Shown here: one piece after another, positions 1-61,480 of the stretch
How positions within the stretch are numbered: the stretch's first letter is position 1
How the letters are laid out: every line of letters starts with the position of its first letter
Origin: Brachycybe producta
Taxonomy: Eukaryota; Arthropoda; Diplopoda; Playtdesmida; Andrognathidae
Length of the DNA: 64,000 nt
Assembly: GCA_036925085.1 (NCBI GenBank)
Contig: JAUPFP010000085.1
Coordinates: 402,501-466,500 of the forward strand
Direction of reading: 5' to 3'
Translations under genes and position numbers: made by a program
The notes under the pieces: generated by a model
The model's input: only the letters and a program-made list of their open reading frames with translations
Database searches by the model: none
What the model was told of the DNA's origin: nothing

Positions 1-1694
1 GCAACTGTCTACATGTCTTGAAGTGAAACGTGATAGTGTGACGTCATGACAGTGTGACGTCTACTTCACAGATATCATTGAGTCAACAACAGTGTTGCCT
101 CTCCCTCCCTCCGGAAGCCAAATTTCCCTACAAAGTGGATATTTCCCTACAAGCGGTCACTCAACAACTATTATAGTTACTGTCGCTGTCGCAATACTAT
201 TATCAACTACCTAGTCAAACGAGATAGTGTGACAGTGCTATCGCAACAGTGTGATAGTGACTATCATGTGGTCTTCACTATGATAGTTGTTCGCGATAAG
301 TTGCTGCTCTCATGACAGCAAATATCGTGAAAATGAGGCTTAAAACACAAGTAAATCTATAGCTCAACTATAGAATTGTTAGTTCTTTAACCTGATAAGT
401 CAATCCATAAAATGACAGACTTTTCACTTTGACTGCAGAACAATCTACGAAACGGACATTTTTACGACAAAGAAAATGTCATACTTTGTACATAAAAGTA
501 ATTTCGCTTCATCTTTCTCACTTTTTTTTTCTGACCCCAATAAACAATTTTAACACTGGACACTTTAAAAGTGCTGACAACATCCAACTATGTTGTAATA
601 GGTTGTTCAACAACAAGTATTAACTGTATAAACGGTGAAGAAACAGCCACAGAAGAGAGAAAAACAAAATATCGCATTCAAAAACGAGACTTTTTTTTAA
701 AAAAAAAAGACTATCTCTCGAGCGAAATTTTATTATTTTTATGTTGAATTTCAGTCAAAATTAATGTGTGAAAAAGGATTTAGTTTTATTGGCAATAAAG
801 TGTAATGTGCGTATTGAGACTTATGCCAAGTATAGAGGAGCCCTATATAAGTTTAAGCTAAAATGACACATGCGCAAAATGATAAAAAAATCTTTTAATA
901 GTTTCGTAAACTAATTCTGGTCTATAGCTGTCTATCTCTATAGCCAAGATGAGGTTTAACAAAGTAGTTAACAACACTATAGTGGAAGGTGGGTAGGTGG
1001 ATCCTCAGGATAACTTTCCTAACCACACAACATCTAATGGAAAACAATTAAAGAGCCTTTTTCCTTTTTCTTTCCTTCAACAACTTCATAGGAGGGAAAA
1101 GAAATAAACTAAATATATATTTTTTTACGACTCTTGTTTTATTGCAAAGAGTAAAACATTCCATTTTAAATAACTTCAGAAACGAGAAGATGTCGGTCCA
1201 TATAGCTAAAAACCTCCTTATCTTAAAACATGGCCCAGCACTCAAAAATTTCTAGGTGTTTTAATGTAGGTCTGTACGGAGCCCTGTAAAGGACATTGTC
1301 TGAAAGACAAAAATGTCTTCAATTCCTATGATTGCCCCACACGATTCGAAAGATAAACAGATTCAGAGTGGGCGTTGCTGAGGTGTTTCCATAGTAGCTC
1401 ATCACAATGCAACTTCGGTAATTCATTGCAAGTGAACCCATAGATCACCAATGGAAATGTTAGGAGCAATTTCAGCTTGTTTTTCTTTTTGCATGTGTGA
1501 TCCAGCCATAACTCTTCAAAAGTTAACTAGAAATTAAGTTGGAAAACGTTAAAGCTATAAACTGAATAAAGCCATAAAACACAAACAAACATATCTGCTG
1601 CTGTTTATTTAGTTTCATATATTTGGATTGAAAACAATAGTTCAACCCTTTTTTCAATTTACTAATTTAACCTCCTTTTTACATCATTTCTTTT

Positions 1695-1696
<2 letters not shown>

Positions 1697-1733
<37 letters not shown>

Positions 1734-1734
1734 A
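1697..1734. repeat. (TC)n microsatellite
   Basis: About 18 CT/TC dinucleotides in a row, read directly from the sequence. Confidence 0.95.
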
Positions 1735-1937
1735 TACTCTAGAGACTAATTACATTTAGAACAATTCCGTGCCATTGTTTTCACTTGAATGATTATTTTT
1801 TTCACCTCATACACAAAAAACACAACCTAACCCTATACATTATAAATTAATTGTTTTCGGGTTATCAGTCAAACATGGCCGTTAACCATTAACAAAATAA
1901 CAGATAAAAGATTTACTGCACGTCCAACAGTATCTCA

Positions 1938-1940
<3 letters not shown>

Positions 1941-2019
<79 letters not shown>
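1941..2019. repeat. (AT)n microsatellite
   Basis: An uninterrupted run of about 39 AT dinucleotides. It can form a cruciform and is likely to vary in length between individuals. Confidence 0.97.
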
Positions 2020-2021
<2 letters not shown>

Positions 2022-3100
2022 ACGATCACGAGTGTTTGTTGACACATGGTCTCAATTGTCAAACATGTCATCATCATCACGAAATGTATTACTCAAAGTA
2101 GAAAAGTACTGAGTGGATCACAAGGGAGTTGATAATTAAAAGTGTGTATTAGCGGAGGGGGCCGAATCGAGGGCTTGGTCCAAATCAAACGCAACAAACT
2201 ACGTCTCATTCAGAAAATGCCAAAATCAAAACAATTTATTAGTAAAAAAATATAATTACTTTTTTTTTTACTAAGTTTCAAAAACGCAACTAACTTTAAG
2301 ATGCAATTAAAAGTTTGTTAGAAACTGGAATGGTAAATGAATACACTGAAGGCTTTCAAGTATACTAAGTAACGTGAAGCACAGCCAGCTTAGCTTAGGA
2401 ATGGATCACACGCGCAGAAAAACAAGCAGAAAATAGAAATCAAGAACTAAATTTCTGTGTTCTTTTGCAGTATTCAAGGGTCCTTACACACTACAGCAGA
2501 AAACATTTCAATGACAAAGTTGAGTTAATAGAAGAAAGAAAGAATAGGAGGAGGAGTCACAAATAAAGATACATCGTATTGGGCTGATTTCCGTGTGGAA
2601 AGTAGAAACAATTTTAAAGTGTTTTTTTTTCTGCACACATTCAACTAGATAAATAGAATCGAATTATTAAAATTAGATAAATTCCTTTTTCAGTGGAATT
2701 TATTTCTGCATGTGTGAACCATCCTTAAAATCCAAAGTAATACACGACATAAAAAAAATCAACTGAAAATATGACTGAAAACAGAATTTATCTTATTGAA
2801 ATAATTCTATTCTGTTTATTTGACAGAAAGTATAGGCAGAAGATAGGCTGAAATTGTTTCATTTCCGCCAAATAGCATTCCATGTTATCGGCCATATGAT
2901 TAATCCCCTCCTATTTTTGTCCTTTCCTCTTCTAGAAACTTAAATATGTCCTTGAAATGTTTTCTCTAGTAATCCCCTAGTAGTCCCCCTGAACCGCGAA
3001 GGAAAACAGAAAAAAACAAAACAGAAAAAACCCTGTTATTTTTTTCTTTTTCAAATTTTTCACGCATGTGAAACCCAGGCACGTAAGCACAGCAAAATAA

Positions 3101-3245
3101 CAGTCGTTTGCCCCGCCCTTTTATGAGCGTCATACTAAACATCAACCAATTAAAAATTAAAAAAAAGCAAGGAGAATGTGACGTCAGACCAAATAAACCA
3201 ATTAGAAGTTGCCGTTCCTGATCAAAGCGCGGGAGCAAACGACTG
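3101..3245. repeat. Outer inverted-repeat unit with CCAAT, GC-box and CRE words
   Basis: Starts CAGTCGTTTGCCCCGCCC and ends with the inverted partner GGGAGCAAACGACTG. It contains ATGTGACGTCAGACC and CCAATTAGAAGTTG, the same words that build the larger palindrome next to it. It may be an older member of the same element. No coding potential is seen. Confidence 0.6.
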
Positions 3246-3265
3246 CATCTTGCTGAACACACTAC

Positions 3266-3532
3266 AGCCAATTAGAAATCGGGACATACAGAAGTTGGCG
3301 CCGCCCTTTTTATGACGACCGGCAACTTCTAATTGGTTAGTTATGTAGTCTGACGTCACATGCTCCGCCCTTTTTATGACGACCGGCAACTATTAATTGG
3401 TTTGTTGTATGGTTCGACGTTAAAAAGGGCGGAGCATGTGACGTCAGACTACATAACTAACCAATTAGAAGTTGTCGGTCGTCATAAAAAGGGCGGAGCC
3501 AACTTCTGTATGTCCCGATTTCTAACTGCCTG
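3266..3532. repeat. Large near-perfect palindrome (about 115-base arms)
   Basis: The left arm (about 3266-3382) and right arm (about 3423-3532) are almost exact reverse complements around a short centre. Each arm holds GAAATCGGGACATACAGAAG, CCGCCCTTTTTATGACGACC, CCAATTAGAAGTTG and TGACGTCACATG. This is the architecture of a fold-back element. The embedded CCAAT, GC-box-like and CRE words would also suit a promoter-derived repeat. Short ORFs across it are by-products of the symmetry. Confidence 0.85.
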
Positions 3533-4396
3533 TGAACACAACTTGTCTATTGTGGAACCCAGGCTTTAGCTTCTCTTATGAATTATGTATAAAGTTCTTC
3601 TAAAATTGGTTATTGTTCTATTTCAAATCGAAACCATTATGTAACAAGAAAATCCATTAAAAATCTTCCAACTAATTTTGTTGTTGTTTTTGTTGTTGTT
3701 TTTACTGTTTGTTGGAACACTTTCAAAAGTTTCTCTCTTATTTTCTTCATAATTTGGAATACTAAATGTACAGACACACAGTTTTCAAAACATAAGTGTG
3801 TCTTTTAGAAGAAAAAAAAAACCTATGAAAAACATGAGCCAAAAAAAAGGAAGAAACCCGCCCTCCCCCCCCCCCCCGGTCCCCTCCCAAACAAATGATG
3901 GGGGCACTTACAAGCCGAGTTCTGTTTAAAACATGAACAAATTAAATTAGAGGAAAAAGGACGCAAAAAAAAAGAACAATAGATATAAAAAAAGGAAAAG
4001 TTGAGATCAATCTACGTGACGGTGAGATAAGACTAAAATGCTCAAAACAATTTAGACATAATATCTGAGCTAGAAATTTGCATAACAAAAAGAAAAGTTA
4101 CACATATAAAACCTTCCCCCAAGAAAACGCACCAAAAACATGCTTTTAGATTTTTAGCTTCTTTCTTTTTTTTTTAATGTTTCTTTTAAATTGCACTAAC
4201 CTATTGTATGTTGAACAGTCGAGAGAATAATAAAAAGTGACACAAAAAATGTCTTATAACTTTTAATAAAAAGCAAAGTTTCTTAAGTGTGTGACTTTCT
4301 TTTAGAAGTTGTGTGTCTTTGTGTCAAAATGTTCATTCAACACAAAGAACCCTTGAAGAGGGGCAATCACTGCTAGCTTGTAGCAAATAATCTTAA
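3533..4396. other. Gene-free AT-rich stretch
   Basis: Homopolymer-rich DNA including a C-run near 3865. I see no exon, RNA gene or mobile element. Confidence 0.5.
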
Positions 4397-4552
4397 AGGT
4401 CGATTTAGTGGCGCGAGCTGAAGATGAAAATATTGTAGCTGAAGATGATATGTGGCGCAAAATATACCACAGCCATCTATATCCACCATGACACTACTTA
4501 TCATCTTCAGCTACATTTTCATCTTCAGTCCGCGCAACTAAACCCACCATAA
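4397..4552. mobile_element. Fold-back MITE-like element
   Basis: Terminal arms of about 58 bases are reverse complements: the left contains GCTGAAGATGAAAAT then GTAGCTGAAGATGATA, and the right contains TATCATCTTCAGCTAC then ATTTTCATCTTCAG. A roughly 40-base loop separates them. Small size, long terminal inverted repeats and no ORF fit a non-autonomous DNA transposon. The superfamily is not assigned. Confidence 0.7.
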
Positions 4553-4608
4553 GCTGACAAAAGAAAAAACAAAGCAGAAACTCCATGATTCAAGACAAAT
4601 TGGCGACA

Positions 4609-4859
4609 ATTCTAAATTCAAAAAAGTAAAAATTGTCAAAAATGAAAATATTCCAATGAAAATTTAAAAAAAATGGCAAAAAATGAAAGTCTGTCTTCTA
4701 GATGCCCTTAAAAGCACTGAAATGAACTCAGGAGGGCCCAACAGACTTCAGAGGACTATAACAACTCAAATTCAAAAAAGTAAAAATTGTCAAAAATTGA
4801 AAATTTTCAAAATGTAAGTCTTCTAGATACCCAGAAAAGCACTGAAATAAAACTCAGGT
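4609..4859. repeat. Imperfect tandem duplication
   Basis: Two diverged copies (about 4609-4731 and 4766-4859) share TTCAAAAAAGTAAAAATTGT, GTCTTCTAGATRCCC and AAAAGCACTGAAAT. The second copy lacks an internal block. Confidence 0.75.
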
Positions 4860-6401
4860 CATACCATATGATATTTATTGTAACGAACATAATTTCTTGA
4901 AGTTCGCTTTAAGATTAAGTTAAACTTAAGACAGATCAGACAGAAGAGTAATAAAAATCACAGTCAATTTCATCATAGGGTCAACTGTGATTGGTTTATT
5001 TCTTCTATTGCTGACATGGGGTAGCTTCTGGAAATATGGATAAATATGTTGATGGGGCAGATTCAGTGAGATTTGGATAAGTCCTCACTGACCCTGTTAA
5101 AATCAGTGGAGGCCGGATGCGGGCCATATGTTGCACATGTCTGCTATAGAAGAAACAACTCCAGTCTGAAGTTATTAAAAGCACAACAGGAGTTAATTAA
5201 ACTAACATTTGCTCTAATATAAGAGTATATTTGTGAAGGTTGCATTAAATCAAGGACAAGTTGGAACTTTTGCATGACGAAATGAGTATTGTTAAGCTAC
5301 TCACGATCGGGATCTGGACACACAGATCAAATCTATAAATGATAGATTTAAAAGTGTCTGTCGAGATCCTTCAGTTCCGATCCAATTGTAAATGCGTGGC
5401 TTAAATTATGGTGCACACTGGCAGTAAAAAAAACCGTAACAGAAGGCAAATCAAAATGTGCCCCTCGTCCTGCTGTGCAGATATGCCAATGTAGTGGTCA
5501 TCAAAATTGAGCAGTAATCATTAACCAAATCAAGACACTACCTCCTATGTGTTATTGGTTACTGCTACTTGATGTACCAGGAAAAATCAAACAGCAGTAA
5601 AATCCTTGCGGACACAACTTCACACAAAAGTCAAAACTGGTTTTACTGTCATGTTATAGGTGCAAAAAAATCCAAATGTGAACCAAGCTATAGATAGTGT
5701 CACCCTAAGTGCTGTAAGTTAAGGAATAAGTTGGAGAGTTCTCTTTTGAGTCTATGGATCTAGCAAGTAAAAGTCGTATTCTTAATGGCTTTTAAGTCAC
5801 GACCTTTGACTTAACAATCCTTAAGAATACGACCCATAATGCAAAACTATTCATAAAAACTATTCACTATTAACTTTTAAAACTATTCTTAACCTCCAGA
5901 AATTTATTTTCAAAATATTGTCAAGACTTGACAATATTAACATTAAGAAGTGACTTTTCACGAGTCACTAAACGACGCCATTTTAAATTTCCAAAAAAGA
6001 AAATCTCCCCCCCCCCCATTTTTGTGACAAAGGTTGTCACCTCACACTTCCATAATTCCTTAATGAAATACATGTATTCCCTATTCATATTCAACTCAAT
6101 ACCGTTCCAATCCATGTAGAATAATTCAAATATTAAATCCATGGTTCATTCAAATGAAAGTAATGTGAGCTGGTGATCGCAACACATCAGAATTCCAGTA
6201 GAGGAGTAGACTTTGGGAGGGTTTTGATGCCAATGTCTGTTGTTTGGTGGCGCATTCAATCTGATAAAGTTTATTTATAAAAAGTCACCTGATTTTTAAT
6301 TTTTTAAATTATATTAATCCCTTATTTTAAATTTTAAAGGTCGTTTTCGAATAATTCTTGACAATATTTTGACAAGAAATTTCTGGCGGTAATGGTCTCT
6401 T
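4860..6401. other. Gene-free stretch with a small hairpin
   Basis: No gene is seen. A short fold-back lies at about 5770-5840 with arms GTCGTATTCTTAATGG and CCTTAAGAATACGAC. A C-run lies near 6007. Confidence 0.5.
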
Positions 6402-6541
6402 TAAAACATTTAATTTGTCCTTGTAGTGCTAGACGGCGACACTGACACTCGCCATAGAAATAAATTGACAGCTCATCATAATGTATTTCTACGGCGAGAT
6501 GGTGGCGCCGTCTAGCCCTACACGGACAAATTAAATGTTTT
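6402..6541. mobile_element. Fold-back MITE-like element
   Basis: The arms AAACATTTAATTTGTCC and GGACAAATTAAATGTTT bracket inner arms TGCTAGACGGCG / CGCCGTCTAGC. The hairpin spans 140 bases with a short loop containing a second small palindrome. The minus-strand ORF across it is a shadow. Confidence 0.8.
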
Positions 6542-9113
6542 AACAGCCTTCTTCTTAAGTGTCTTGTGATCGCTGAAAACAAAACTCCACTATAAAAAAA
6601 AAATACTTCAGTATGAATGAACATCATTACGGGTGATGGTGGTGGTGATGATGATGACTACCATGCATGCAATACCGCATCCAAATGGCCACTGAATGGT
6701 CAGACACTCATTTCATGATAAGTCATACAAGAAATCTCAAAATACCCGTTTCTACATTTCCAAAGATTCAGAAATCTCATTTATTCTGCGATGATGAACC
6801 CCCTCCCCCAAAAAAACAACAATACAGAAAAAAAAAATAAACAAAGCTCCCAGTTTCCTCTGGTCATCAAATAAATGGAGCTTTTTTATGATAATGACCA
6901 CACAATAGTCATTCACTCATCTCGTAATCTTTTCTAGCTGTTCCTCATACTCATCTCTCAAAGACCCGCATTCCCCCCCCCCCCCCCCAAAAAAAACCTC
7001 ACATTCGAACAAAGAAATAAATACAAATGACCGTTGGTCACTGTGTGACTCGCGAGCCATCATAAAACTAACCAATTCTTTGTTTGTTTGTTTTCAAGTT
7101 GGCTGAATAGATATTTATTTTAACCAATGCAGTGGCTAACTCGATAGATTTTATTTTTTTGGAAAATTTGTACGGAAAAACGTCAAGGGAACATTTTTTT
7201 TTAAATAACGTTACTACAACTAGAATGGTATAGAAGATTAGAAGTTTTTTCATAGCAATATCTTAAAAAATAAACCCTTTATAATTCAGGTTGAAAATGA
7301 CCCTTTTTGGTGGGGGGATATTTATTTCCATTGACATTTTATGAAAAAGTTTATTTTGAAAGATATCATCAATAGTTTTACATTCTCAACAACTATATTC
7401 TAATTCCGAAAACAGTTCGAATTTTTTTCGCAATGTTTCTCCTGAAAAACGTTCGCTTAAAAAATATAATTTTATTTTATAAAAACCCGCAGGTGGAGGG
7501 GAATAGAACATAATAGTCACTGCTGTGGAGTCATCCGGAAAGCCCAAAACAAAATAAAATAACTATTCAGCCTCCTTAAGAGGGCTCCATAAAAAATACT
7601 TGTGTAAATGCAAGGTAGATGGCGCTTGCAACAACCTCCATAGGTGTCAAACTACACTCGCCACCAATTAGTTGAAATAGAATGTAGGCCTTTTAGCTCT
7701 AAAAGCGTCAAAAACATCATTAATTATCATCAGCACGTGACAAACTTAACCCAGAACATAATATAAGTGAAGAGAGAGAGAGAGCACGTGTAGAAATAGC
7801 GATGACGCAATTAAAAGTTTGCCACGTGAAAAAAAGGAAGAAGGTGAGTCAAGAGTTGAAGAGTGTCATTACATTACTATGGGCGGAGGGCCAGTTGCGC
7901 CATCTACTGCTACAGAGACCAAATAAATGATCTACTTGCATTCTTAAAAGAAAAATTCATAATTAACGATTTAGCTATGGTATCGCGAAATTGCATTTAG
8001 ATCCAGGAAAAGTGGAACTCAATAACGGAAACATAATCCCTCTTTTGGCTCACACCATTATAACCTCGTCCTCCTCCTCCCTTTACCCTTCATACTCTCT
8101 ACCCTTACGTCTCTCCCTGTAACTCATAAAAGCTTATATAGCACCCCATAAAAAGGGTTATTTTATGTACGTACAGTGCATCTTCTCAAAGTCGCCAACA
8201 ATAACTTCTCAGTAGGGACAACAACAACATAAAAAGAGGCGACATTTTCTGATAATTAAGTTACACCAGTAACAAATGACCTGACCAATCAAGATGGCCT
8301 TCAACGTCATAAGAACCCTAACCCTCTCCTCCTCCTCCTCCACCACATCCCCTAGTCTTCTCTAAAAGTTGGTCCAAATAATGACTAATAAAAGTTGTGT
8401 ACACAATTCCATAGAGACCAAAAATGCAACAATTTGCTATTTTGCTTTTGCCAATGACACAAACACACACAACATACGACCACAAACAACTGCGTCACAC
8501 AAAAGACAATGACAGAAATATTACTGAGAGAAAGAGAATCATCAGATTCATCAGTGGATTTCGTGGTGACAAATGTGTGGTCAACCTTTTCAATAACAAG
8601 AGCCATTTTATTTTTGTGTGTGTATGTGTGTGTGTGTGTATGAAATGGTTACAAAGTTCTTTTTAAGCTGGTTTATGAACAGCTGATTTTCATTCAAACT
8701 TTTTGACTATTCCGTCTTTCAGAAGAGCAAAATTAAAGCAGGTCGGTCGCACACTACGGAATATTTTGATAACAAGCATTTCAATAGGGCTCCACGCACA
8801 CTAGCTTGGATCGGATCGGAAAACGCCACGTCAGCGGAGATCCATTAAAATGCGTTCCGATCCGATGTAATATGCTTTACAAGCTTTAGAAGGGTGGGAG
8901 AGGATTTTGTAACGATCCTGTAACATTAAGAGCTCTCGCATTCCAACGAGAATTTCACAAAAATGAAACCTCAACTTTAGTCGGTCATACCATTGAGTCA
9001 TTCGTTGAAGAAACAACAAGTTTCACTCTAATAAGATTAAAATAAGACCAACTCTCAAATTATTTCTCTCTACTCTTGAGATCTCTCTTTCTATATTTAT
9101 ATATTATATATGT
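6542..9113. other. Gene-free stretch
   Basis: No gene is recognised. It contains a C/A homopolymer block near 6974-6996, a GT microsatellite near 8613-8640, and a partial copy of the dispersed palindromic element at about 8664-8733 (TTATGAACAGCTGATTTT then GAGCAAAATTAA). Confidence 0.5.
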
Positions 9114-9292
9114 TACTGTCAATCTGCGGAATCATTCAATCTGCAGAATACCTAGACAATCTGCGGCAATCTGCAAAATTCAATACCTAAAATGTATTGA
9201 ATTTTGCAGATTGCAGATTGTCATTGTAGGTTTGGTTGTTTTGCAGATTGCCTAGGCAAGCTGCGGATAGACTGATTCTGTAGATTGACAGT
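9114..9292. mobile_element. Fold-back MITE with TA-like flanks
   Basis: The termini ACTGTCAATCTGCGGAATCA and TGATTCTGTAGATTGACAGT are inverted, and the interior is also palindromic (GCAGATTG words on both arms, centre at TTGAATTTTGCAGATTGCAG). The ends are flanked by TTA/TAA, so a TA target duplication and a Tc1/mariner-type origin are plausible. No ORF is present. Confidence 0.75.
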
Positions 9293-9603
9293 AAAATATA
9301 TTATTTCGATAATATTATGAACTCAATGGGGAGGGAGGAGAGGAGGGGGGGGGGGGTTGAATTTCTTCATATGTCTCCTCCACCTTCTTACACAACAAAT
9401 ACACCGCCATCACTTCCCCTCCCATCTTCATCAATATCTGATGACCCCTTCGAGAAATTCTTACGACATCATTAGAGTGATGAAGTCTCCTATAGTTTGA
9501 TAAAGAGGAGTCTCAGTTGTTTTATTGGCCTAAGATGAGTTTTTGTCGTAAATTTAATAATAAGAGGACACCTGAAATTGCTTTTTTATAAAGCTCAGAG
9601 ATT

Positions 9604-9638
9604 AGGAGGAGGAGGAGGAGGAGGAGGAGGAGGAGGAG
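9604..9638. repeat. (AGG)n microsatellite
   Basis: About 11 tandem AGG/GGA triplets, read directly. Confidence 0.95.
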
Positions 9639-9699
9639 AAAGAGGAGGGCACACCAACTGAACATTCGTAGATCTGATATCGAATTTGTAGTTATCCTA

Positions 9700-12655
9700 C
9701 CGCCAACCTTCTTCTCTCTTATATCGTTTGACCCTATTTTTAGAAGAACACTCCGTCTCTCTCCAATTGGTTCGTCCATCTTCACGTAATAAACCTTTAG
9801 AATAATTTGTGACCCATGCATTTGTTAAATGAAGAAAAGCAACTTTGTCTTTCTTTCAAAATTACGTCTCCTAACGCTGAAAGTTGTTTCTCAAGAGTAA
9901 AGGTTAAAACGGCACAGTCCGCTTTCTGTATCTTTAAAGCGGCGCTACTTGATTTCGCTTTGCAATTTCAACCAACGAAGTCATCACTGCATATTCGCGT
10001 CAAAATCTAACCTCTAGCTTGCTCAGAAAAATGATAAGTAGCTGTTACGTCATAACTAGCTGACCTAACAGTTTTCAACCTTCATAAAAATCTGATTGGT
10101 TAATTTTTTTTTTTTTTTTAAAAAGATGCATTAAAACAGCAGGAATTTAAAAAGGAACGCAAAGCTTAGCTTTAAAAACACACCGAGCGAATTCTAACCT
10201 TAGTTCTTGGTGAATCAATGGTGATGTTTTGAAGCGAAATTTAGCTATTATAACACACAAAAACAAAAAAAACGTCTAAAAAGTAAAACAAGATGTAATC
10301 GTGTCTTGTGTTGTAGGTTTAGTGGTTAGTGTCTCAGTGCAACTGAGGCCATGGTAATGTTGGTCATGGCTTCTCAATCCACGTCCAATTTGAATTAATT
10401 TTCAAATATTTCAGAAGGTGGCAGTGGACAAACAAACAAATTATGAAGTTAAATATAAAAACCGAGTAAAATAAATACCACTGCTGTCATTATAGAGAAA
10501 TAATAAGACTGTCATAAGATTGTAAATTATCATATCTAACTCATAACCTTGTAACAGTCGCCAAAAAAAATTAAAAAAAATATATATTCTTATGACAAAT
10601 ATAGTCGTATGGCTGCCGTTAACTGATGTACAGAAGAATATGATAGTTATAAAAATATATAGCAAACAAGCAATCATACCATAAGGTATGAGTGTCACAC
10701 TTTTAAGACTTTTTCTGCAATGAGGGTCCCAGTTTTTTTAAATATTTTTTTTAAAAAAAGATTCCATAGTTTGCTAGAAACTAGAATAGCAAGCAAATGT
10801 CATGAAAGTGTTTTCATAAAACAAGTTCGTTTTGTAAAATGGATACTGGGCTAAGTGGACCACTGAGCTAAATGGACAACGAGGGGAAGTGGAACATGAG
10901 ACTTAGTTGTTTAATGGGACGAAGTGGATCATGGAGCCAAATGGATCACGGAGCTTGTTGGACTACGTGGACCACGGAGCTAGATCGACCACTGGGCTAG
11001 GTAGATCATTAGGGCTTACGATCATCACTGAATGAATAGGGTCTGAGCCAAAAAAAAAATGCGTGTTCTTTTCGTGAATTTAGGCTTAACAATTCTAGTT
11101 TTCTGACAAATTTTCAACTTTTTCAAGTAGCATCTTTTAAAAAAAATTTCTTTCCACTATAATGTTTTTGAGGACAGTCTAAAAAACACTTAGTGGAAGG
11201 GTTTGAAGTGTAAATTATGTCTGATTTCCGACCCCCTTCTTTTTTTTCTATTGACTTCCAGATTATGGAGTTATTGATTTCAAGTATGGAATTCGCCTTG
11301 AAGACAATACGAGACCAACACACAACCAGAGTGATCTCTCTCTCTCTCTCTCTTTTATTTTGAAAAAGATTCATACGAAATAAAATGTTGGTTTATGGGA
11401 AGGGGCTAAATTTGCAGAATTTAGACCAAGAAGAACACTTTTTCATCATTCATTTAGACTCTAAATGAATCAAGAAAAGTAAGGGAAAATTATAAGGAGG
11501 AGGATGAGGAGGAGCAGCTTCTCCTGCACACAAAAGTACCATTATCCAACTAAAACACACCATGGATGAGTTTAATCTAATTGTTCTTCTTTTTCTTCTC
11601 GCTTTTAAGCTGAACCATAAAAACCATCAGTAAAACAAGTAAAGTACTAGTACTTACTAAATTAAGAGTGGCCCTGAATCAAATTACCCCCCAAAACAAC
11701 ATGAATTGATGACTTTAGTAACGAGATCTGAGGCAAGTTTCAAACTTTTGCGTTTTATATAATTAATCATAATAATTAATCACCATCATAGAAAAGAGTA
11801 TAAAGTCCATTTATAGCAACTAGAAATTTCATTATGTTGAATTTGCATTATAACTACTTTTTTTTTTTACTTTTGACCAGCTCATTCTGAACATATTTAG
11901 CAGCTTCTTAGGCTATAGCTTCACACGACCACAATGTGGCGCCACAAAAGTTATTGCCTTTAGCAGACCACTGATTATAAAGAAAGTGTTCATGCAAGCC
12001 ACCGCCACCGTTTTTCCTGCACCGCATTTCCACAGGTCGCGACCAGCCACTTTTTTTTGTCAGTGCTGAACAAGGATGGTGGCCCGCATTGGCAACAAGC
12101 CACAGTTGTAAACTGCTTTCTTCACACGAGCCATTTTGTGACGCTACTCAGTGGCGGCTACTAAGTCGTATTTATGAAACCAGACTTAGCATTTCATAAT
12201 TTTCAAAGTATTGCAACTGATCACATATTGTCGCATTTCGATTCTTCCCAACTGCTGAACCATTCTCGCGTATCAGAACCAGAAGACAAAAGTATGGCTC
12301 TCCACACTGTTTAGCTTGAGAATGGTAAGCTGAGAAAATTGGCAGTAAAATTGGGATTCGGTTAAATCAAACGATGTCACAGAGGGTCGCCTGCATATCT
12401 AGCCCATAATCGAAAAATCAAACCAACGCTTGACACTATATTGTGTTAGAGCAAATGACTTTCATAAAAAAAAAAGTTAATTTAGTATCCAATTAATCGA
12501 TCAACGAGTTAATAATGTCACAAGCCTGACAACCGCAAAAAAAAAATACAATGCGACACTTAGTTGCATGAATAGAGAATCATTCTAGGAACTGTAGCCA
12601 GTAGTATCAGAATAGCATCATATATATAAGCAGCCATTAATTTCAACCACAAATT
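9700..12655. other. Gene-free stretch with degenerate minisatellite
   Basis: No gene is seen. At about 10,845-11,010 there is a degenerate tandem array of roughly 20-base units of the form AAGTGGACCACGGAGCT. A TC microsatellite lies at about 11,336-11,352. Confidence 0.5.
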
Positions 12656-12830
12656 AGAGGTGGGAGCCGCCGCCGCCGCCGTGTTTCGCCACCGTCCACC
12701 ACACCAGACCGTGCGGCCTGCACAACATGGCTGCGCCAAATTTTGAACGTGGCGTGGTCCACGCAGCTGCTGCCAAAGATTTTTGCTTTCGTCACTGCCG
12801 TTTTCATTTTATCATCGGCTCCCACCTTTA
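12656..12830. mobile_element. GC-rich element with short terminal inverted repeats
   Basis: Begins GAGGTGGGAGCCG with a (CCG)n tract and ends CGGCTCCCACC, giving 11-base inverted ends. The GC content is well above that of the surroundings. It has no convincing ORF, because the two overlapping ORFs run on opposite strands of the same palindromic DNA. A MITE is the simplest reading. Confidence 0.5.
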
Positions 12831-12957
12831 CCACTAATGACAATCATCTTGTTGCTTCTAAGAATCATTATACTTGTTTCATTCGTTTCACTACCGGAAT
12901 GACTGAAGCCCTTTTCAAACGATCCTCGCTGTCTATATTTTGAATTGACTACCTTGT

Positions 12958-13200
12958 GGCCTCATTCTATAAAAAGTCCTAAAAATTGCAACAATAATAC
13001 CTTATGATATATCACAGCTTGTGCACTATTATTTTTATGACTTTTCATATTATATTATTCTCTACACCAATCAATGGTGCCAGTCATATGACAATATTTG
13101 TTATAATATTTTGTAATTTGATTTTGTAACTGTTAAAAGGTTATAAGCTAGATATGACAATTTATTGTCACATGACAAGTGTTATTTTCTCTATGTAATG
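12958..13200. mobile_element. Fold-back element, GGCCTCATT family, copy 1
   Basis: Begins GGCCTCATT and ends in a degraded partner. The interior carries TAGATATGACAATTTATTGT and ACTATTATTTTTATGAC, which recur in the copy at 60,507-60,755. Similar length and order of words show common descent. Confidence 0.65.
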
Positions 13201-13751
13201 ACACCTTCTTGTAGCAGTAGCACTGTAGGGAGTCTAGGGACACCAAACAAAAGTGACTACAGTCGTTTTCAAACGAAATTGCAAATGTTTTCAAACGCCT
13301 TCTATACAAAAAAAAAGATGTCGTCAAGCGATCTTACCAATTTAGACAATTTCAAAGTGATCCCTAGGATCTTCTACATTTGGAGAAGATGTGGCTTGTA
13401 TTATAAGCCACATAAAATCGTGCAATAACAAACAAAATTGCAACTTTCGAAATGTCGAATGAAAAGAACATTAGGAATATTTTGTCTCGTCGTCGGTGAG
13501 ATGCAATTTTCAACGAAAATCCAATTTCAAACCATTCTGAGAAACAAGCAAATTATTCGATTTTTTTTTTGTTGTAGAATAATATGATTGTGAAAAAATA
13601 TAATGTTCGTTGGAGAAGTTTCCATATGAACAATACTGTTTGCAAATAGCCCATTCTAGTAACTAATATAAGAACATTCTACACGTAAAGAATTTATCTG
13701 AAATCCCCATCTTTCGAAAAGCGACGACGAAAACCATTTTGTTTCGTTAGG

Positions 13752-13908
13752 CCTTGTTTCCATTGAGGGTGAAAATTTGAACTTTTTAAAAATTTCAACT
13801 GGTGCCCGCCCCATTCATTATCATATAGGCAAAGGTTACGTTTGTTCTATTTTTCACCAGTTTACATTTTCAAAAAGTTCAAATTTTCGTCTCAGTGGAA
13901 ACAAGGTC
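13752..13908. mobile_element. Fold-back MITE-like element
   Basis: The terminal arms CCTTGTTTCCATTGAGGG and the inverted CTCAGTGGAAACAAGG, followed by inner arms GAAAATTTGAACTTTTT / AAAAAGTTCAAATTTTC, enclose a loop of about 70 bases. Confidence 0.75.
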
Positions 13909-14038
13909 TTAAGATATCTTTAAATGGAATAGAAGAAACTTCACTTTGGCCCATTATCATTAAGACAAAAGGACCTCTCAAGAGCGACCCCCCTTTCACA
14001 CCTCTAGAAGTTGCAACCACAAACGAGGTGACAATATA

Positions 14039-15601
14039 CAGTGCGTTTCATATATATAGACGCACCCCAAAAATTGGTTATAACTCGAGTTATAGTCAAT
14101 GGATTCACCTGAAATTTTCAGCATAAAGAGATCATCTTATATTCTAAACTTTCTGCTAGGCAGAAATTTTTTTCTTTAAAAGGTAAAAATTAAAAAAATT
14201 AAAAACTGGAAAATGACCGTTTCATAATTATAGACGCACTAATGAACTTTTCACTTTTATTAATTATTGTGACAAAATAACATGCTGAATCATTAAAAAT
14301 AGTAAGGTATACAACTGTTATGATGTTTCAAAACTTAAAACATTCTTTTTTACAGAATTAAACAATATTTATAAGCAAATTTGCAGAAATTCTACCCCGA
14401 AACAGCTAAAATGGGACTTTTCAACTCTGCTATTGTAGTATAATCATAGCAATCTGTAAATCATTATTGTATGATGTTGTCCCGAAAGTTCTCTGTAAGA
14501 TTTAAGTCCGGGGACACCCTGGCCATTCGAGAGTGGTGATATTCTGGTTTCGTAACCATTGATTCCTTAGATTACTGGAGCGAACTGGTGCATTTTCTTG
14601 CTCGAATGCTAAGCTAACGCTAGGAAATCGACTTTGTCAGGTCAGTAAACACTATCATAATATTGTCTGATAATAAACATTATTTTTTGGTTGGTTCAAA
14701 TGCGCTAAATACTTCGCATATTGTTAGGCCACCACCACCGACATATCTGAGTGAGTGAAAAAATTCAATCTCGATGATTCTGACGGTTTTTCTTTCTTTC
14801 TTCATATTGGAAGGATGTTACGAGAAAAGCACAGTATTTTCCTAAACAAAATTTCGGCAGTGGGGGAGCCTAATATTATGGGGAACATTTAGTGCCTTTC
14901 AAACGAGCAGCTTAGTTTTTGAAACGCGAGCTTAGCATTTATTTCAACCCAAATAAATATCAGTGATTATCAGACAATGTTACGAGGGTATGTACTGCCA
15001 TATTACATCGCTTCTATAGCATTTGCTTAGTATTCCAGCAAGAAAATGGCCCAGTTTCCTCCAATAACCTAACGAAGGAATGGTTACGGAACCAAAATAT
15101 CACCACTCTCGAATGGCCGGCGTGTCTCCCGGACTTAAATCCTGATGAAAACGTTTGGGACATCATTGTACATGATGATTAAGCAGATTGCCATCATGAT
15201 AATACAATATCAAAGCTGAAAATTGCCATTTTAGCTCCTTTTCAGTAGAATTTCGGTAAATTTGCTTATAAATATTGTTTAATTCTGTAAAAAAGAATGT
15301 TTTAAGTTTTGAAACATCATAACAGTCGTATACCTTACTATTTTTAATGATTCAGCATGTTATTTTGTCACAATAATTAATAAAAGTGAAAAGTTCATTA
15401 GTGCGTCTATAATTATGAAACGGTCATTTTCCAGTTTTTAATTTTTTTAATTTTTACCTTTTAAAGAAAAAAATTTCTGCCTAGCAGAAAGTTTAGAATA
15501 TAAGATGATCTCTTTATGCTGAAAATTTCAGGTGAATCCATTGACTATAACTCGAGTTATAACCAATTTTTGGGGTGCGTCTATATATATGAAACGCACT
15601 G
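14039..15601. mobile_element. Tc1-like fold-back element with two inverted transposase 3' ends
   Basis: The ends are CAGTGCGTTTCATATATATA and its exact reverse complement, each next to TA, the Tc1/mariner target. The outer arms of about 365 bases are nearly identical. Inside, both arms carry a Tc1 transposase C-terminus: on the plus strand (about 15,035-15,183) LPDLNPDENVWDII ending in a stop, and on the minus strand (about 14,505-14,630) QQENAPVHSSN and LEWPG. These inner parts are clearly more diverged than the outer arms. The usual Tc1 FQQDN aspartate is Glu in both copies. The element cannot encode a complete transposase. Confidence 0.88.
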
Positions 15602-15766
15602 TATAATCAAATGTGGCGTGGTTTCAAAGGACCTCTCGAAGTCTATTTCACGTTTTCTCAACCACTGTTAGGACATTCCATTAATTTTCGATATATTTCA
15701 GTACTTTTTTCAATGATTTTTCAAGACATTTCCGAATTGTTTTAAAGGAATTTCATATTTTTTTAA

Positions 15767-16552
15767 TGTGACACCCTGTAGCCACAGAATGGTTAAACAC
15801 CCTGCAGAAATTCATTTCTGTCAGTATGGCACCCCTTGGTGCACAGATGTTCAGACTTGGGTGGCCCGAATTCTAAGTGAATTCGTGGAACCCAGTCGGA
15901 CCGTGAGAATTGGGAATAGAGTCCCCAAAAATACCTTTCCTTTTAAGGTAATACCCCCAGCCCAGGGTGATGATTGGCCCAGTTGGTCAATCATTGAGCC
16001 CTGAGGTGACAGTTGCCCCTCCCAGGAGACCGGACAAGTGTGCCTGAAGCTTGAGTGTGTCAGTTCGGAAATAGAGTTCAGAGAGTAAGTTTGAACTAGA
16101 CAGTTCAATGTAGAGTAAACTAGAACAGAGTGCATTATGTAACGAATTGTACACAACCTGATTATGTCAATAATATCGAAGTAAGAGAGTATATTTTATT
16201 TTGCTTAACAAAACTATTATGTATAAGAATTAATGAGTTCTAGGACTCCGGAAAATAACGGAGTATCCAGCAGAAGGTACTCAGACACCGCCTGAGTCCC
16301 TCTGCCTGGAAACCTCCAGCAACTCAACGGAAAAGGACTAAAGTGCCATCGGCATCATCACGTACTATACAGAAAGATCCCTGAGAAAACGGTCTTTTTG
16401 TGGGCCGTCGCCGGGCCGGACCAGTAAATGTCCCGTCCGGTAAAATCAACCCCAAGAGCAGAGGCTGGCCCGCCGACAACAGAGTCGGCACCGGCACCAT
16501 CGACTCAGCAAAGAAGTCGAAACAGTGGCGCCAAAGGGCCAGCCACGTCACA
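15767..16552. mobile_element. Solo LTR (786 bases) with TTAA target duplication
   Basis: The element starts TGTGACACCCTG and ends CACGTCACA, giving the TG...CA ends and a perfect 6-base inverted terminus (TGTGAC/GTCACA). TTAA stands immediately on both sides (15,763-15,766 and 16,553-16,556). GC content and texture differ sharply from the AT-rich satellite it interrupts. A TATA-like GTATATTTTATT is at about 16,188. No gag-pol is present, so it is read as a solo LTR, probably of Ty3/gypsy type. TGGCGCC near 16,526 resembles a tRNA-Lys primer-binding site but lies inside the end, which is odd. Confidence 0.7.
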
Positions 16553-16816
16553 TTAAGGCATTTTCAGGAATTTTCACTGTATTTAAAATGTTTATAATAA
16601 ACTCTAAAAAGTTTCGTGTTATTTCAATTTTAAAGACATACCAGACCCAGGGCATTTAAAAATTCTTTTTTTTTAGGAATTTCAAGACTTCTGGAATATT
16701 TTTTAACAGAATTTCAAAACATTTTTCGTTATTTAAGAACTGTTATGGCCATCAAAAAACCTTTTTCAAAAAACCTCAGAATTTTTTTCAAGAAATTTCA
16801 AAACCTTTGAGGTAAT

Positions 16817-17168
16817 TTAAGATGATTTTAGAAACAGCTGATTTTCAAACTCTTCCTTGTTCTTGCCTTTTAGAAGAGCAAAATTAAGAGAAACTAGAAA
16901 GTTTTTTTTTATAAACTAGAAGGATTGCTCCATCACTTAAGTGTAATATTCACTTTGACATCTTTCAAAATAAACTTTTTATTCAGACAAAAATTTAAAA
17001 AATTCGTCTGCTTCAACTTGGATCATTTACAAACTCACCCAAAAGCATATTTTTTTAAGTTTTGTTAAGTGATTGAGCTACTATTCTAGTTTCTAAAACA
17101 CGTTAAAGTTTCCATTCATTTTGCACCTGAAAAACAGAATAAAAGTTCGAGAGGCGACTAAACCACTT
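16817..17168. mobile_element. Dispersed palindromic element (CTTCTAGTTTCTAAA family)
   Basis: The left arm has AACAGCTGATTTTCAAACTC, AGCAAAATTAAGAGAAACTA and TTTCAAAATAAACTTTTTAT. The right arm is the inverse, with TAGTTTCTAAAACACG, ATTTTGCACCTGAAAAACAG and GTTCGAGAGGCG. It is a near full-length member of the family described under findings. Confidence 0.8.
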
Positions 17169-17515
17169 TGAGAGACTTTTCAGAATTTTATCGAACAATT
17201 TCAAAACTGTTAGTTATGAAAAGTTTTCAAATATCCCATCTTAAAGAATTTCAGTGTTTCATCAGAAAAATTGAAATTCTTTTGAACGAAATTTAAGTAC
17301 TTTCATAATTTGTATAAAAAAATGAATCCTGAAGTATTTCTATTTCAGGAAATTTTACAGTTTTTCATAAAATTTGAAAACTTTTTAAGTCCATCACATC
17401 AGTTCTTTCCAGAATCATTGCAAGAATTTGCAGAACATTTCAGAAGATTACAAAATGTTTTCCAACATTAAAAAACTTTTCAGGGCATTTCCCAGCCTTT
17501 CAGGATTATGACCAT

Positions 17516-18329
17516 CACAGTTGGTACAATTTTACTTAAAAATTTTTACTACCGTAAATGCAACATAAAAGTCAACTTGCAACAATAATGTCAGACTAAC
17601 AATCATAAAAAAAAGGTCTGACAAAATATACCTTAATCCAAATTAACTTTTCCCATAACCTCACACCCAACCACCCACCCCTCCTCGACCTCTTTTTTCC
17701 TCAAGATGCCTAAATGAGTACTAATTAGAAAAGTCAAAAGGGCCTTTCTTTCTTAATCCAAAACTAACGACTTGGAAAGATTTTTTTCTTTCAAGAAACT
17801 CAAGCAGACCAACAACAACAACAAGAACAACAACAACAATAATAATAAAAGATGGTTATAATAACTTAATAAAAGTGTGTGTGTGGGAAGAAGAAAGAGA
17901 TAGGCGGTTGGATGAAGAAGGCATTAGAGTTTCATATCTTATTACTAAAACCTTCACTCTTCTTCCCTTAATTTAACCGTGTTTTATTGTATTTACGTGG
18001 GTGAAACTTTATTATTATTACAGTCATAATTATTTGCACATGAGATTAATTGGATCCACTTATTGCTTTAATTTATTAATATTATTAATATAAATTGTAT
18101 TTAAAAAGAGAAACAGACAGAGAGAGGAAGAGAGAAGGAGGGAAAAAATAGTTGGGGCTCTCATCTAATTAGCTAAGAATATTTTTAAAACGATTTTATA
18201 AATCTGAACTTGATGAAATCCATCGAAATCACTTTGAGACTTGTAACTCCATCTATTGGTTGTAAGTGAAACTGCAATGCGCGCGCATATTACAAAAATA
18301 AATAAAGGAAGTCAAAAATAGGAACCTCT
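17516..18329. other. Gene-free AT-rich stretch
   Basis: Nothing beyond an AAC/AAT-type simple repeat at about 17,811-17,850 and scattered short microsatellites. Confidence 0.5.
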
Positions 18330-18900
18330 CCCAAAGCCCAAGAGCCATTTGGTCTTTTGCAAAAAAGCCTGGGCTGAGTAAAACCAATGGTTTTATGGGC
18401 CTCATTGACCTGGAGCGACACCTGGGTCTGATGAGTGTTGTGAACCAGATCGGCTATTGAAAAAGCCCAGTGGAAGGCTTTATGGACCTCTTATATACCT
18501 GGTGCCGTTCATGTGCCTGTTTCACTTTGCATGCCAGGTCCACAATTGAAAACACCCAGCCCAAGGCTTTGTTGGCTTTATGCGCTTTATAGGCCTAATG
18601 AGAGTCATGGGTCTGGTGGGTGTTTGTGGAACTCATGGGCATGGTCGGCTATCAGCCCAATACTTAGTTAGCTTCATGGGTCTGGTGGGCTTTGTTGGCA
18701 AATGAAAGCCCAGCACAAGGATTTTTATGCATCATGGGCTTAGTGTGATTCAGGGATCTGATGTGCTTTCTGCACTTAATGTGCTTCGTCGGCTGTGGAT
18801 AAGGCCCAGCTCATTAAATTTGTGGGTCTGACAGGCTTTATGAGACTAGTGGGCATCATGGGCTTTGTAGACCTTATGTACTTGGTGGGCAGGGCTCACT
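18330..18900. repeat. Degenerate GGGCTT/GCCCAG minisatellite
   Basis: Words like AAAGCCCAG, GGCTTTATGGACCT and GGGTCTGGTGGGC recur roughly every 50-100 bases, with decay. The tract is richer in GC than its neighbours and has no open frame. Confidence 0.65.
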
Positions 18901-19428
18901 TTGTAAGTATGAATTTGTAAGTGCTGAATGATGGTTTCCAGTCAAATGTATAAAAGAGACGAGAGATGACAATCTATGTTGCAGTTTTTGAAAGATAAGA
19001 GTACTGTTTTAAGTTTCACATACAAGATAACCATTATGAGTAAACCAACATGGCGTCTATAACTTATTCATATGTTAAACACGCCATATTATGACACAAC
19101 TTTTAAAAATTGACTTGAAAAAAAAACTTTATGCGACCTTTTTTAAGAACCATAATGTAAAACGATTAACCATTGTTGTTGCAGTGGTTGTGATGTCACA
19201 ACTGATGATGCAAATGGTTTATTAACCATTGGGTTCAAAAACGTGCTGAAAAATTACAAGAAAACCAAGCACCTAACCATGAACATCAGTGAAAAGTGTA
19301 TACGCAAAACGCCAGCAATAATACTCTCGAAGTAAATGTTAAAAAGTAAAAAAAACAACACGTTCAAAAATGGTAAAACAGCTCAAATTCACATGGGGAG
19401 AAAAAAGTAAAATAAACAGTCGTCTCAC

Positions 19429-20565
19429 CTGTTTCGGACGTAACGACACAGAATCATCATCTAGCGGGTAACTAACAGTTGTAGCCAAAGAAAATTCACT
19501 TGACGACGAAGATGAAAACAAATTATGAATGTTTAAACTTGAATGAATCGCGCTGGACTCTATGTAAAAATAAAAAATAAACCGTTAGTGAGTTGCTCTT
19601 CACTGATAAAGATAGATTGAACCGACCATTGGTTGCGAGAGCCTCTTCGACTCCTGCAGCGAAAGAATCGAGCGTTAACGGATTGTGAATCCGCTTTCCT
19701 TTCATAAGTAACCTTCGACCACCGATTGGACCTTCGCCAAGCAAACTATCACCACCATCCCCCTCGTCTTTCTGTTTGGTTACGAGATTTAAATCGATTA
19801 TGTCGGTCTCTACATAAAAAAAACGAAATCATTAGTGAGCCCCCTTTTCGAGAAAAAGAGATGAATCGAATCTACCTTTGGTTGCGAGAGCTGCTTGGAC
19901 TCCGGCAGTAAAAGAATCAAGAGTCAACGGATTGTGAATCCGCTTTCCTTTCTTGAGTAACCTACGACCACCGATCGGACCTTCGCCGAGCAAACTGTCA
20001 CCGCTATTCTTCTCGTCGGTTACGAGATTTAAATCTATTACGTCGGTCTCTACGTAAAAAAAAATCATTAGTGAGCCCCCTTTTCCAGAGAAAGAGACGA
20101 ATCGAATCTACCTTTGGTTGCGAGAGCTGCTTGGACTCCGGCAGTAAAAGAATCAAGAGTCAACGGATTGTGAATGAGCTTTCCTTTCTTAAGTAACCTT
20201 CGACCACCGATCGGACCTTCGCCGAGTAAACTGTCACCGACATTCTTTTTCACTTCGGTTTCAACATCCAAATCGAAAGATTTCTTTCTTCGTTTTGAAG
20301 GAAGAGTTGGAGTTGAATCGTAATCGTGTCTTCTTTTACTAGTCGAAGGAAGGGAATTCAGTGTCTCATGTGCCTCTAAAACGTTTCGCAACTAAAACAA
20401 CAAAATGAATCGAATTAAGAACGAAATTTCTGAAACGAATCGTAGAGATTTTGTAGTTACAAGTGTTCGAGGTGTTCCTGTGACACTCTCGGTGCTGTTT
20501 GCTGAGCTACGACGGCTACAAACGGTACGAGTCATTTCGTTTGCAGTCTCCAATGTGTCGCCCAT
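19429..20565 (-). CDS. CENP-T-like kinetochore protein (N-terminal part) with three tandem duplicated exons
   Basis: Exons, in order: 20,461-20,565, 20,112-20,391, 19,876-20,049, 19,627-19,809, 19,429-19,559, with introns of only 66-70 bases. Frame and phase agree throughout. Exons 1 and 2 join to give GTPRTLLRNVLEAH, the TPRTLLR motif that in vertebrate CENP-T recruits the Ndc80 complex after CDK phosphorylation of its Thr. Then come a basic patch (SKRRKKS) and three copies of a 40-residue module, LLGEGPIGGRRLL...NPLTLDSFTAGVQAALATK, one per exon. The F..GV..AL part resembles the Mis12-binding stretch of human CENP-T (inference from memory). A Ser-rich exon follows. A possible last exon at 19,222-19,245 adds only seven residues. 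I found no C-terminal histone fold, so the gene is either incomplete here or a shortened relative. Confidence 0.6.
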
Positions 20566-21705: not shown

Positions 21706-21970
21706 ACTCAAATGTGACGTCATATAAAAAAAATCTGGTACGTGTTGACAAGTGTGACGTCAATAGATTCAGCAGATGAAGTCTTCGTTGAAAGTGCGAA
21801 TTACTTAAAAGATTTCGAACGTTTCACACTAGAGGTCTCAGTCATCGCCTCTAGTAACATCCGGAACGGAAGCTACTGTTACATACCGGAAATGACATTC
21901 GGCTTAGTCTGTTGTAATTGCTATTTTTAGCACGATTTGAAGCAAAAAACAATGAAAAGTACACGGAATA
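21706..21970. repeat. Direct repeat copy 1 (265 bases) with two CRE palindromes
   Basis: About 97 percent identical by eye to 22,629-22,892. It contains TGACGTCA at 21,715-21,722 and 21,755-21,762. A 62-residue ORF lies within, but it shows no family signature and its upstream part shifts between copies. Confidence 0.9.
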
Positions 21971-22628: not shown

Positions 22629-22892
22629 ACTCAAATGTGACGTCATATAAAAAAATCTTTTACGTGTTGACAAGTGTAACGTCAATAGATTCAGCAGATG
22701 AATTCTTCGTTGAAAGTGCGAATTACTTAAAAGATTTCGAACGTTTCACACTAGAGGTCTCAGTCATCGCCTCTAGTAACATCCGGAACGGAAGCTACTC
22801 CTACATACCGGAAATGACATTTGGCTTAGTCTGTTGTAATTGCTATTTTTAGCACGATTTGAAGCAAAAAACAATGAAAAGTACACGGAATA
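22629..22892. repeat. Direct repeat copy 2 (264 bases)
   Basis: Second copy of the 21,706-21,970 module. Its first CRE (TGACGTCA, 22,638-22,645) is intact, while the second is altered to TAACGTCA. It abuts unique sequence leading into the NTF2 promoter. Confidence 0.9.
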
Positions 22893-23047: not shown

Positions 23048-23148
23048 TCACTAACTTCAAATCGGACGCGTTTGCGGGATCGTCGTTTTTCTTTTCGAAG
23101 CGAAAGAGAGGCCTTTTTTGGCGATTTGTTAGCCTAATATCATCTATT

Positions 23149-40329: not shown

Positions 40330-40544
40330 TTTAATAGGTCTTTATTATTGGATCCTATGAGCAAAACAGAAAACGTAAACAACGTCAAAACAAATAAAAT
40401 CAACGTCGAAATACCTGAAAAACAAAGCGAGACAAAAGAAAACAACGTAAAATTAAGAGAAATTAATAAACAAACCAATTGAAACTAGGCAAAAACAACG
40501 ATAAACCATCCAAAACTAATAAAAAAAAATAAAACAATCATCAG

Positions 40545-59533: not shown

Positions 59534-59578
59534 CTTTGCTGAGGTTTTGCTGACGAAAAAAAAAATATATGGCCGCTC

Positions 59579-59872
59579 AAAAGTGTCTACCCAAGCTCTT
59601 GATGGTCAGTTGTTGAATGGTTACCACCGAATTATTTCAAAATGTGGCCACAAAGAGACAAAAAGTGTCCACCAAAGCTCTTGATTTTCAGTCGCCGAAT
59701 GGTCACCTCAATGACTATGTCAAAATGTGGCCACAAAGAAGCGAATGTGTCCACGCAAGATCTTGATGGTCAGTCGTTGAATGATTATCAAAAAAGTTAT
59801 GTCAAAAGGTGTCAACGAAGAGACGAAAGTGTCCAGCCAAGCTCTTGATTAGTCACAAGTTGAATGATGACC
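59579..59872. repeat. Minisatellite of about 85-base units
   Basis: About three and a half units with AAGCTCTTGATGGTCAGT, TTGAATGGTTAC, TTATTTCAAAATGTGGCCAC and AAGAGACAAAAAGTGTCCA in fixed order. Immediately upstream of receptor 2. Confidence 0.85.
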
Positions 59873-61393: not shown

Positions 61394-61480
61394 GCAATGT
61401 TTTTTAAACAAAAAAACTCCTGTAAAATCATTCAAAATAGTAAAATTAAAAACACAAATAGAAAAAAAAACCTGCCATAC

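Follow-up and report, generated by a model that had tools for sequence, protein, structure and literature searches.

Vertebrate CENP-T, as exemplified by human CENPT (PDB 7qoo, chain T), carries a TPRTLL[RK]xx[VI]L-type motif close to its N-terminus, followed by an acidic stretch and by a histone fold with an extension that ends the protein. The human protein has two TPRTLL motifs, at residues 11 and 85, and the Thr11 and Thr85 sites are reported to bind Spc24:Spc25 after phosphorylation; according to the same report the Mis12 complex is bound 1:1, for which phosphorylated Ser201 is needed (PMC5241120). A published AlphaFold2 model places human residues 180–235 on the Mis12 complex (PMC11189301), and in chicken CENP-T the Mis12C-binding region has been given as residues 161–216 (PMC8844409). 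CENP-T is reported to have been lost in chaetognaths and rotifers (PMC12460157), and in insects CENP-T homologs are described as present, with a CENP-W homolog described as not identified (PMC12678787). In KNL1/Spc105, likewise a kinetochore scaffold, the MELT arrays consist of a short motif that is reported to change copy number by duplication and loss (PMC7292645). Among the open-licence literature matches listed, as far as their titles and abstract openings go, there was no report of repeated CENP-T modules.

Here we describe a gene of the millipede Brachycybe producta that, as modelled here, shares the vertebrate order of motif, acidic stretch and histone fold, and that differs from human CENP-T in having one TPRTLL motif instead of two. 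Whereas mammalian CENP-T has a single conserved stretch at about residues 131–160, the present gene has a triplicated module in that position, without a significant match to the mammalian sequence. The gene is very probably CENP-T, and with its triplicated module it is a new variant of it. The parallel with the MELT arrays concerns the copy-number change; those arrays belong to a different protein with Bub3-Bub1 as partner, whereas here there are three modules without S/T-P. The window, i.e. the whole stretch of 64,000 nucleotides that was analysed, begins at position 402501 of contig JAUPFP010000085.1 (C85 below; window base 1 = C85:402501). Judging from the sequence, we believe with a probability of roughly 0.6 that the window holds the 5' half of the sole CENP-T gene detected in this genome, in which nine exons, the middle one of the module-bearing three being chimeric, encode one CENP-T of 468 residues, and a giant intron holds at least one GPCR gene. 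The features within the window are as follows, in window coordinates.

20461..20565, minus strand: exon 1 (E1), with the start codon; its 3' end encodes TPRTL
20112..20391, minus strand: exon 2 (E2), starting LRNVL and so completing TPRTLLRNVL; module copy 1 at its end
20113..20238, minus strand: module copy 1, 42 residues, end of exon 2
20050..20111, minus strand: intron 2, 62 bases, phase 1; shares 94% of aligned bases with intron 3
19876..20049, minus strand: exon 3 (E3), 174 bases, phase 1 at both ends; apparent mosaic of an exon 4-like linker and an exon 2-like module end
19877..20002, minus strand: module copy 2, 42 residues, end of exon 3
19810..19875, minus strand: intron 3, 66 bases, phase 1
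19627..19809, minus strand: exon 4 (E4), 183 bases, phase 1 at both ends
19628..19753, minus strand: module copy 3, 42 residues, the most divergent copy, end of exon 4
19560..19626, minus strand: intron 4, 67 bases, phase 1; shares 67–73% of aligned bases with introns 3 and 2
19429..19559, minus strand: exon 5 (E5), containing SLATTVSYPLDDDSVSLRP; phase-0 3' end with a CAG/GTGAG donor
1..19428, minus strand: first part of the putative giant intron; all coding segments here score below 20

Joined, the five minus-strand exons (20565–19429) give an open frame of 291 residues, and the four introns, of 69, 62, 66 and 67 bases and in phases 0, 1, 1 and 1, are all GT-AG. The original prediction of a CENP-T-like gene gave the translation as 298 residues, which is corrected here to 291; it was right about the phase 1 of the introns that follow the modules, which measure 62–67 bases and not 66–70.

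TPRTLLRNVL, which starts at residue 31 and is encoded across the exon 1/exon 2 junction, appears by its sequence to be the Ndc80-binding motif of mammalian CENP-T. Against profiles of mammalian proteins (built from the 120 best of 445 matches, isoforms included) it scored 13.3 bits for residues 81–100 and 6.8 bits for residues 11–30, in both cases with none of 2000 segment-shuffled controls as high, and both human TPRTLL copies align to it. In pairwise comparison with human CENP-T, 5 of 1000 shuffles scored as high as the region from exon 1 to the start of exon 2, and 45 of 1000 as high as the whole 291 residues; the profile of the whole mammalian N-terminus reached 5.4 bits in its best part (4/2000 controls as high), and what it finds is the Ndc80 part. 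The vertebrate family Pfam CENP-T_N (PF16171), for which human CENP-T as positive control scores 438.5 bits, had no match in the window protein at E ≤ 10, nor at E ≤ 1 when modules 2 and 3 were left out. Homologue searches with the N-terminus gave one hit at E 6.9 and then none, each among the 7997 candidates sharing most words, a preselection that could miss distant relatives; they yielded no relative whose modules could be counted.

A near-identical module of 42 residues closes exons 2, 3 and 4 (residues 87–128, 145–186 and 206–247 of the protein) and is followed each time by a related phase-1 intron of 62–67 bases; 36 of the 42 module columns are invariant across the three copies, and the linkers between them differ in length. 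The copies of exons 2 and 3 differ at 5/126 bases and one residue, those of exons 3 and 4 at 16/126 bases and five residues, and those of exons 2 and 4 at 17/126 bases and six residues, which agrees with the near-identity claimed for the first pair and with the by-eye estimate of about 15 in 125 bases, and about five residues, for the second. Aligned bases match at 58 of 62 positions between introns 2 and 3, at 44 of 60 between introns 2 and 4 and at 43 of 64 between introns 3 and 4, every score being well above those of 300 shuffles; intron 1, compared in the same way with introns 2 and 4, did not resemble either to this degree. Because the introns that follow the modules are also alike, exon and intron were duplicated together, as had been predicted. 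The repeat is beyond chance, forming a 192-base family in which identity to the reference is 94% for one copy and 72% for the other. A protein search of the 295-Mb genome, covering its readable sequence (stretches given as N lie outside it), returned seven matches, namely the five exons described here and two at E 4.2 and 6.1, and thus no second copy of this N-terminus.

Exon 3 together with its intron holds 52 sites that discriminate exon 2 from exon 4, and their distribution is uneven. The linker before the module is exon 4-like at 9 of 11 informative sites and the first part of the module at 5 of 13, whereas the last part of the module is exon 2-like at all 10 and intron 3 at 16 of 18. The maximum chi-square of 20.4, with the best split within the linker, was equalled in 6 of 20000 permutations, although the linker alignment is gapped and the exon 2 linker is perhaps not fully homologous, which would inflate the exon 4 likeness. 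By these sites exon 3 looks like a recombinant of its neighbours. An earlier exon duplication would have given two copies, between which unequal crossing-over (or gene conversion) would then have produced a chimeric middle copy; unequal crossing-over predicts just such a middle unit, which resembles the second copy at its start and the first at its end. As an alternative history, exon 4 may have been duplicated and then converted from exon 2. With lengths divisible by three and phase 1 on either side, exons 3 and 4 can be duplicated or skipped without loss of the frame.

The modules are apparently constrained, as had been suggested from the small number of residue changes. Synonymous and nonsynonymous changes stand at 4:1 between copies 1 and 2, 11:6 between copies 1 and 3 and 11:5 between copies 2 and 3, with dN/dS of 0.08, 0.15 and 0.12, respectively, and P values for the paucity of nonsynonymous changes (simple binomial) of 0.017, 0.0008 and 0.0003; dN/dS and P values serve as guides, the pairs being non-independent and the counts small.

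What the modules might do is a separate matter. The original prediction, that the repeats multiply an outer-kinetochore docking site, was not borne out by the motifs: there is a single recognisable Ndc80 motif, which the modules do not contain, and S/T-P is found only at residues 31 and 62, which likewise lie outside them, and the modules are therefore not extra canonical Ndc80 sites. Docking by the modules is accordingly put forward here as a hypothesis. With less confidence than we have in the gene itself, we propose that each module serves to bind a partner, as a short segment with a predicted C-terminal helix, LTLDSFxAGVxxALAT, that lies after the Ndc80 motif and before the Mis12-binding region. 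AlphaFold2 predicted a helix at residues 28–40 in the three module copies (mean pLDDT 65 overall and 80 for residues 31–40), a prediction made from only three near-identical rows.

The module aligns, weakly, to mammalian residues 147–170, around LRLSxFQQGVDQGL. Residues 131–160 are among the best conserved N-terminal stretches of the 120 mammalian proteins, conservation being moderate (0.78) for residues 161–170. Against the profile of mammalian residues 131–176, 402 of 2000 controls scored as high as the modules, and hhalign placed the modules elsewhere on the mammalian N-termini (residues 26–48), with 67 of 200 shuffles as high. In pairwise comparison with human CENP-T from residue 109 onward, shuffles scored as high in 19/1000 cases for copy 3, in 125/1000 for copy 2 and in 911/1000 for residues 1–126, which contain copy 1. 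The whole N-terminal profile puts module 3 and exon 5 on mammalian residues 147–202 in the right order, at 0.0 bits. Matches of the Mis12 profile land in exon 5, outside the modules, with scores within the control range. There, SLATTVSYPLDDDSVSLRP (PLDDDSVSLRP) compares with human SLNLTFATPLQPQSVQRP (PLQPQSVQRP; the Mis12 site near Ser201), with equal spacing from PL to SV. This Mis12-site-like stretch is single; 129/2000 controls were as high with the profile of residues 181–225 and 638/2000 with that of residues 186–210, and pairwise against human 44/1000 (exon 5 against residue 109 onward) and 68/1000 shuffles were as high. The position of the modules suggests a Mis12-side role, and their sequence falls short of proof.

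Three other assignments were dropped. An alignment of the module with human residues 205–223, made by eye and unscored, was weaker; the best Pfam match, RelB_transactiv, had E 0.1 and 13.3 bits against a cut-off of 27; and five PDB matches of PDZ-LIM type, at E 0.8–1, were taken as chance.

The putative histone-fold half of the gene first surfaced as a weak genome match at C85:167107-167379 (E 1.13), outside the window, beyond the point where the putative giant intron would end (C85:169698). Four putative exons, in contig coordinates, were placed there.

C85:169697-169576, minus strand: putative exon 6
C85:167748-167560, minus strand: putative exon 7
C85:167380-167276, minus strand: putative exon 8
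C85:167188-167071, minus strand: putative exon 9

Their 177 residues run from an acidic stretch through a basic one to a histone fold that ends in QYFPMEYRRLLVPVATDGNKVIP and a stop. They match Pfam CENP-T_C (PF15511) with 40.7 bits (cut-off 28.1; E 2.7e-10; C85:167748-167071), and the histone fold scored 46.8 bits against the profile of 120 mammalian proteins, over positions 13–105 of 107, with 0/2000 controls as high. The exons lie on the same contig and the same strand as exon 5, 252–254 kb 3' of it. A downstream CENP-T histone fold, for which a search had been proposed, is thus present; it and the TPRTLLR motif stand in the expected order, and together they uphold the CENP-T-like identity. 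The joined model has nine exons, 468 residues and one giant intron, and the nine exons would form one CENP-T transcript across it. The junction phases, 0, 2, 2 and 2, are compatible, although the phase-0 fit of exon 5 to exon 6 is worth little because the acceptor of exon 6 was chosen by the analyst.

Closer to exon 5, neither a histone fold nor a continuation of the gene was recognised on the minus strand in window 1–19428 and segments L016, L017 and L023 (some 49 kb, including 5 kb of N) among ORFs and codon-scored segments; weak coding segments, scoring 8–19, occur there. A codon scan of 182.4 kb of the 252-kb interval found two segments scoring at least 20, both belonging to one GPCR gene, compared with 14 such segments in the 43.4 kb of window 20.6–64 kb. 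The scan left out C85:292–317 and 325–352 kb (about 52 kb) and three 5-kb blocks of N, and its yardstick is unclean, as three ORFs of the 20.6–64 kb region trained the score and the background, window 1–19000, lies inside the interval. On the C-terminal exons themselves it gave 13.9 for exon 6 and 8.1 for exon 9, exons 7 and 8 being unlisted on the minus strand; because real short exons score low, the scan speaks to long ORFs only. Within this scope, the contrast in segments speaks for a giant intron that harbours a nested gene. The GPCR gene (C85:225271-226539, minus, the same strand) lies inside the putative giant intron, and its first part matches Pfam 7TM_GPCR_Srw with 47.7 bits.

The two halves could also belong to two loci, the window holding a truncated N-terminal copy of CENP-T, or a half separated by rearrangement or misassembly, and a working CENP-T with its own N-terminus standing at C85:167 kb. 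A gap of 252 kb that contains a GPCR gene would fit this, and an N-terminus could hide in C85:172501-177500, just upstream of exon 6, which is N, or in the roughly 52 kb outside the scan. We nevertheless consider it unlikely: contig, strand, order and phase all agree between the halves, exon 5 terminates at a CAG/GTGAG donor, the modules appear constrained, and the readable genome has no other copy of the N-terminus. Moreover, the coding scans of C85:169.7–292 kb, N blocks apart, had no segment recognised as a CENP-T N-terminus, and after exon 5 the window has no segment scoring 20 or more, weaker ones of 8–19 being present. A single gene spanning the giant intron is the reading that we retain, and within it the function of the modules can be read in several ways. 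They might act as spacers, making a flexible N-terminal arm longer with a sequence of little importance, as would suit the varying lengths of the linkers, the failure of single-module profile matches and the description of human CENP-T outside the histone fold as likely disordered (PMC5241120); this is rather improbable given invariance at 36 of 42 columns, changes that are mostly synonymous and a helix predicted better than the remainder, albeit from three near-identical rows.

Alternatively, each module might be a direct site for the Mis12 complex, with up to three Mis12-Knl1-Ndc80 units recruited per CENP-T, which is the Mis12 form of the original prediction. The modules follow the Ndc80 motif and precede the candidate Ser201-like stretch, in keeping with the Mis12-binding regions published for chicken (161–216; PMC8844409) and human (180–235; PMC11189301) and with the order, at 0.0 bits, of module 3 and exon 5 on mammalian residues 147–202; but the module match to residues 131–176 is not significant (402/2000), the Ser201-like motif occurs once, in exon 5, and for human CENP-T the published ratio is a single Mis12 complex per molecule (PMC5241120), which leaves this reading doubtful. 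Skipping or mutually exclusive use of exons 3 and 4, giving one to three modules per isoform, would be permitted by their lengths of 174 and 183 bases and their phases, yet a swap of copies 1 and 2 would change little because one residue differs between them, and we hold alternative exons to be decidedly unlikely as the explanation. Returning to partner binding as our preferred function, three modules would raise the avidity or the number of one CENP-T partner, likeliest on the Mis12 side, and not the number of directly bound Ndc80 complexes. In its fullest form, and as a tentative possibility, one CENP-T would recruit several Mis12-side partners via three tandem helical modules, whose copy number could be adjusted by unequal crossing-over and perhaps by exon skipping. 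If true, outer-kinetochore valency would have a heritable dial, similar to a MELT array but placed on a force-bearing linker.

The number of microtubule-binding complexes per centromere linker bears on attachment strength, and a natural CENP-T with a triplicated N-terminal module would let copy number be tested against stoichiometry. The triplication also draws attention to a conserved stretch beside the Mis12 site for which a role was not found in the literature consulted, as far as the portions available extend. An intron of 252 kb would, if real, be a second oddity for a kinetochore gene.

Among candidate partners in the genome, NDC80 has a match of 46.8 bits (cut-off 25.1). Mis12 is ambiguous, with three weak matches of which one exceeds the cut-off only when combined with its neighbours (26.6 against 25.7 bits). 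None of the three genome matches to CENP-W was over the cut-off, and one of them reads by eye as NC2-beta-like; the missing match recalls the insects, but it may be due to exons that are short and split. On contig C30 (1241981-1242064, minus) lies a histone-fold stretch, VFLRHAKRSTVNEDDVKLLVRRN, called CENP-S-like by eye because it resembles CENP-S chains.

Several other features accompany the gene in the window. Three long ORFs with multiple membrane spans (51966-53057, 58598-59605 and 61382-62599, minus) are gustatory-receptor-like by eye, and had no Pfam match and no relevant NCBIfam match. CPSF1-like exons lie at 34697-40341 (minus), with one sub-threshold match to a Pfam RSE1/DDB1/CPSF1 propeller (19.5 bits against 26.9), and exons resembling NTF2 (nuclear transport factor 2) by eye lie at 23140-24100 (plus), divergent from the CENP-T exons. 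An interspersed repeat at 3396-3536, whose translation includes TSDYITNQLEV, recurs along the contig (segments L017, L037 and L040). Finally, a 244-base direct repeat, 97% identical between its copies at 21727-21970 and 22649-22892, surrounds an A/T satellite of about 680 bases composed of 12–13-base units with runs of A and runs of T.
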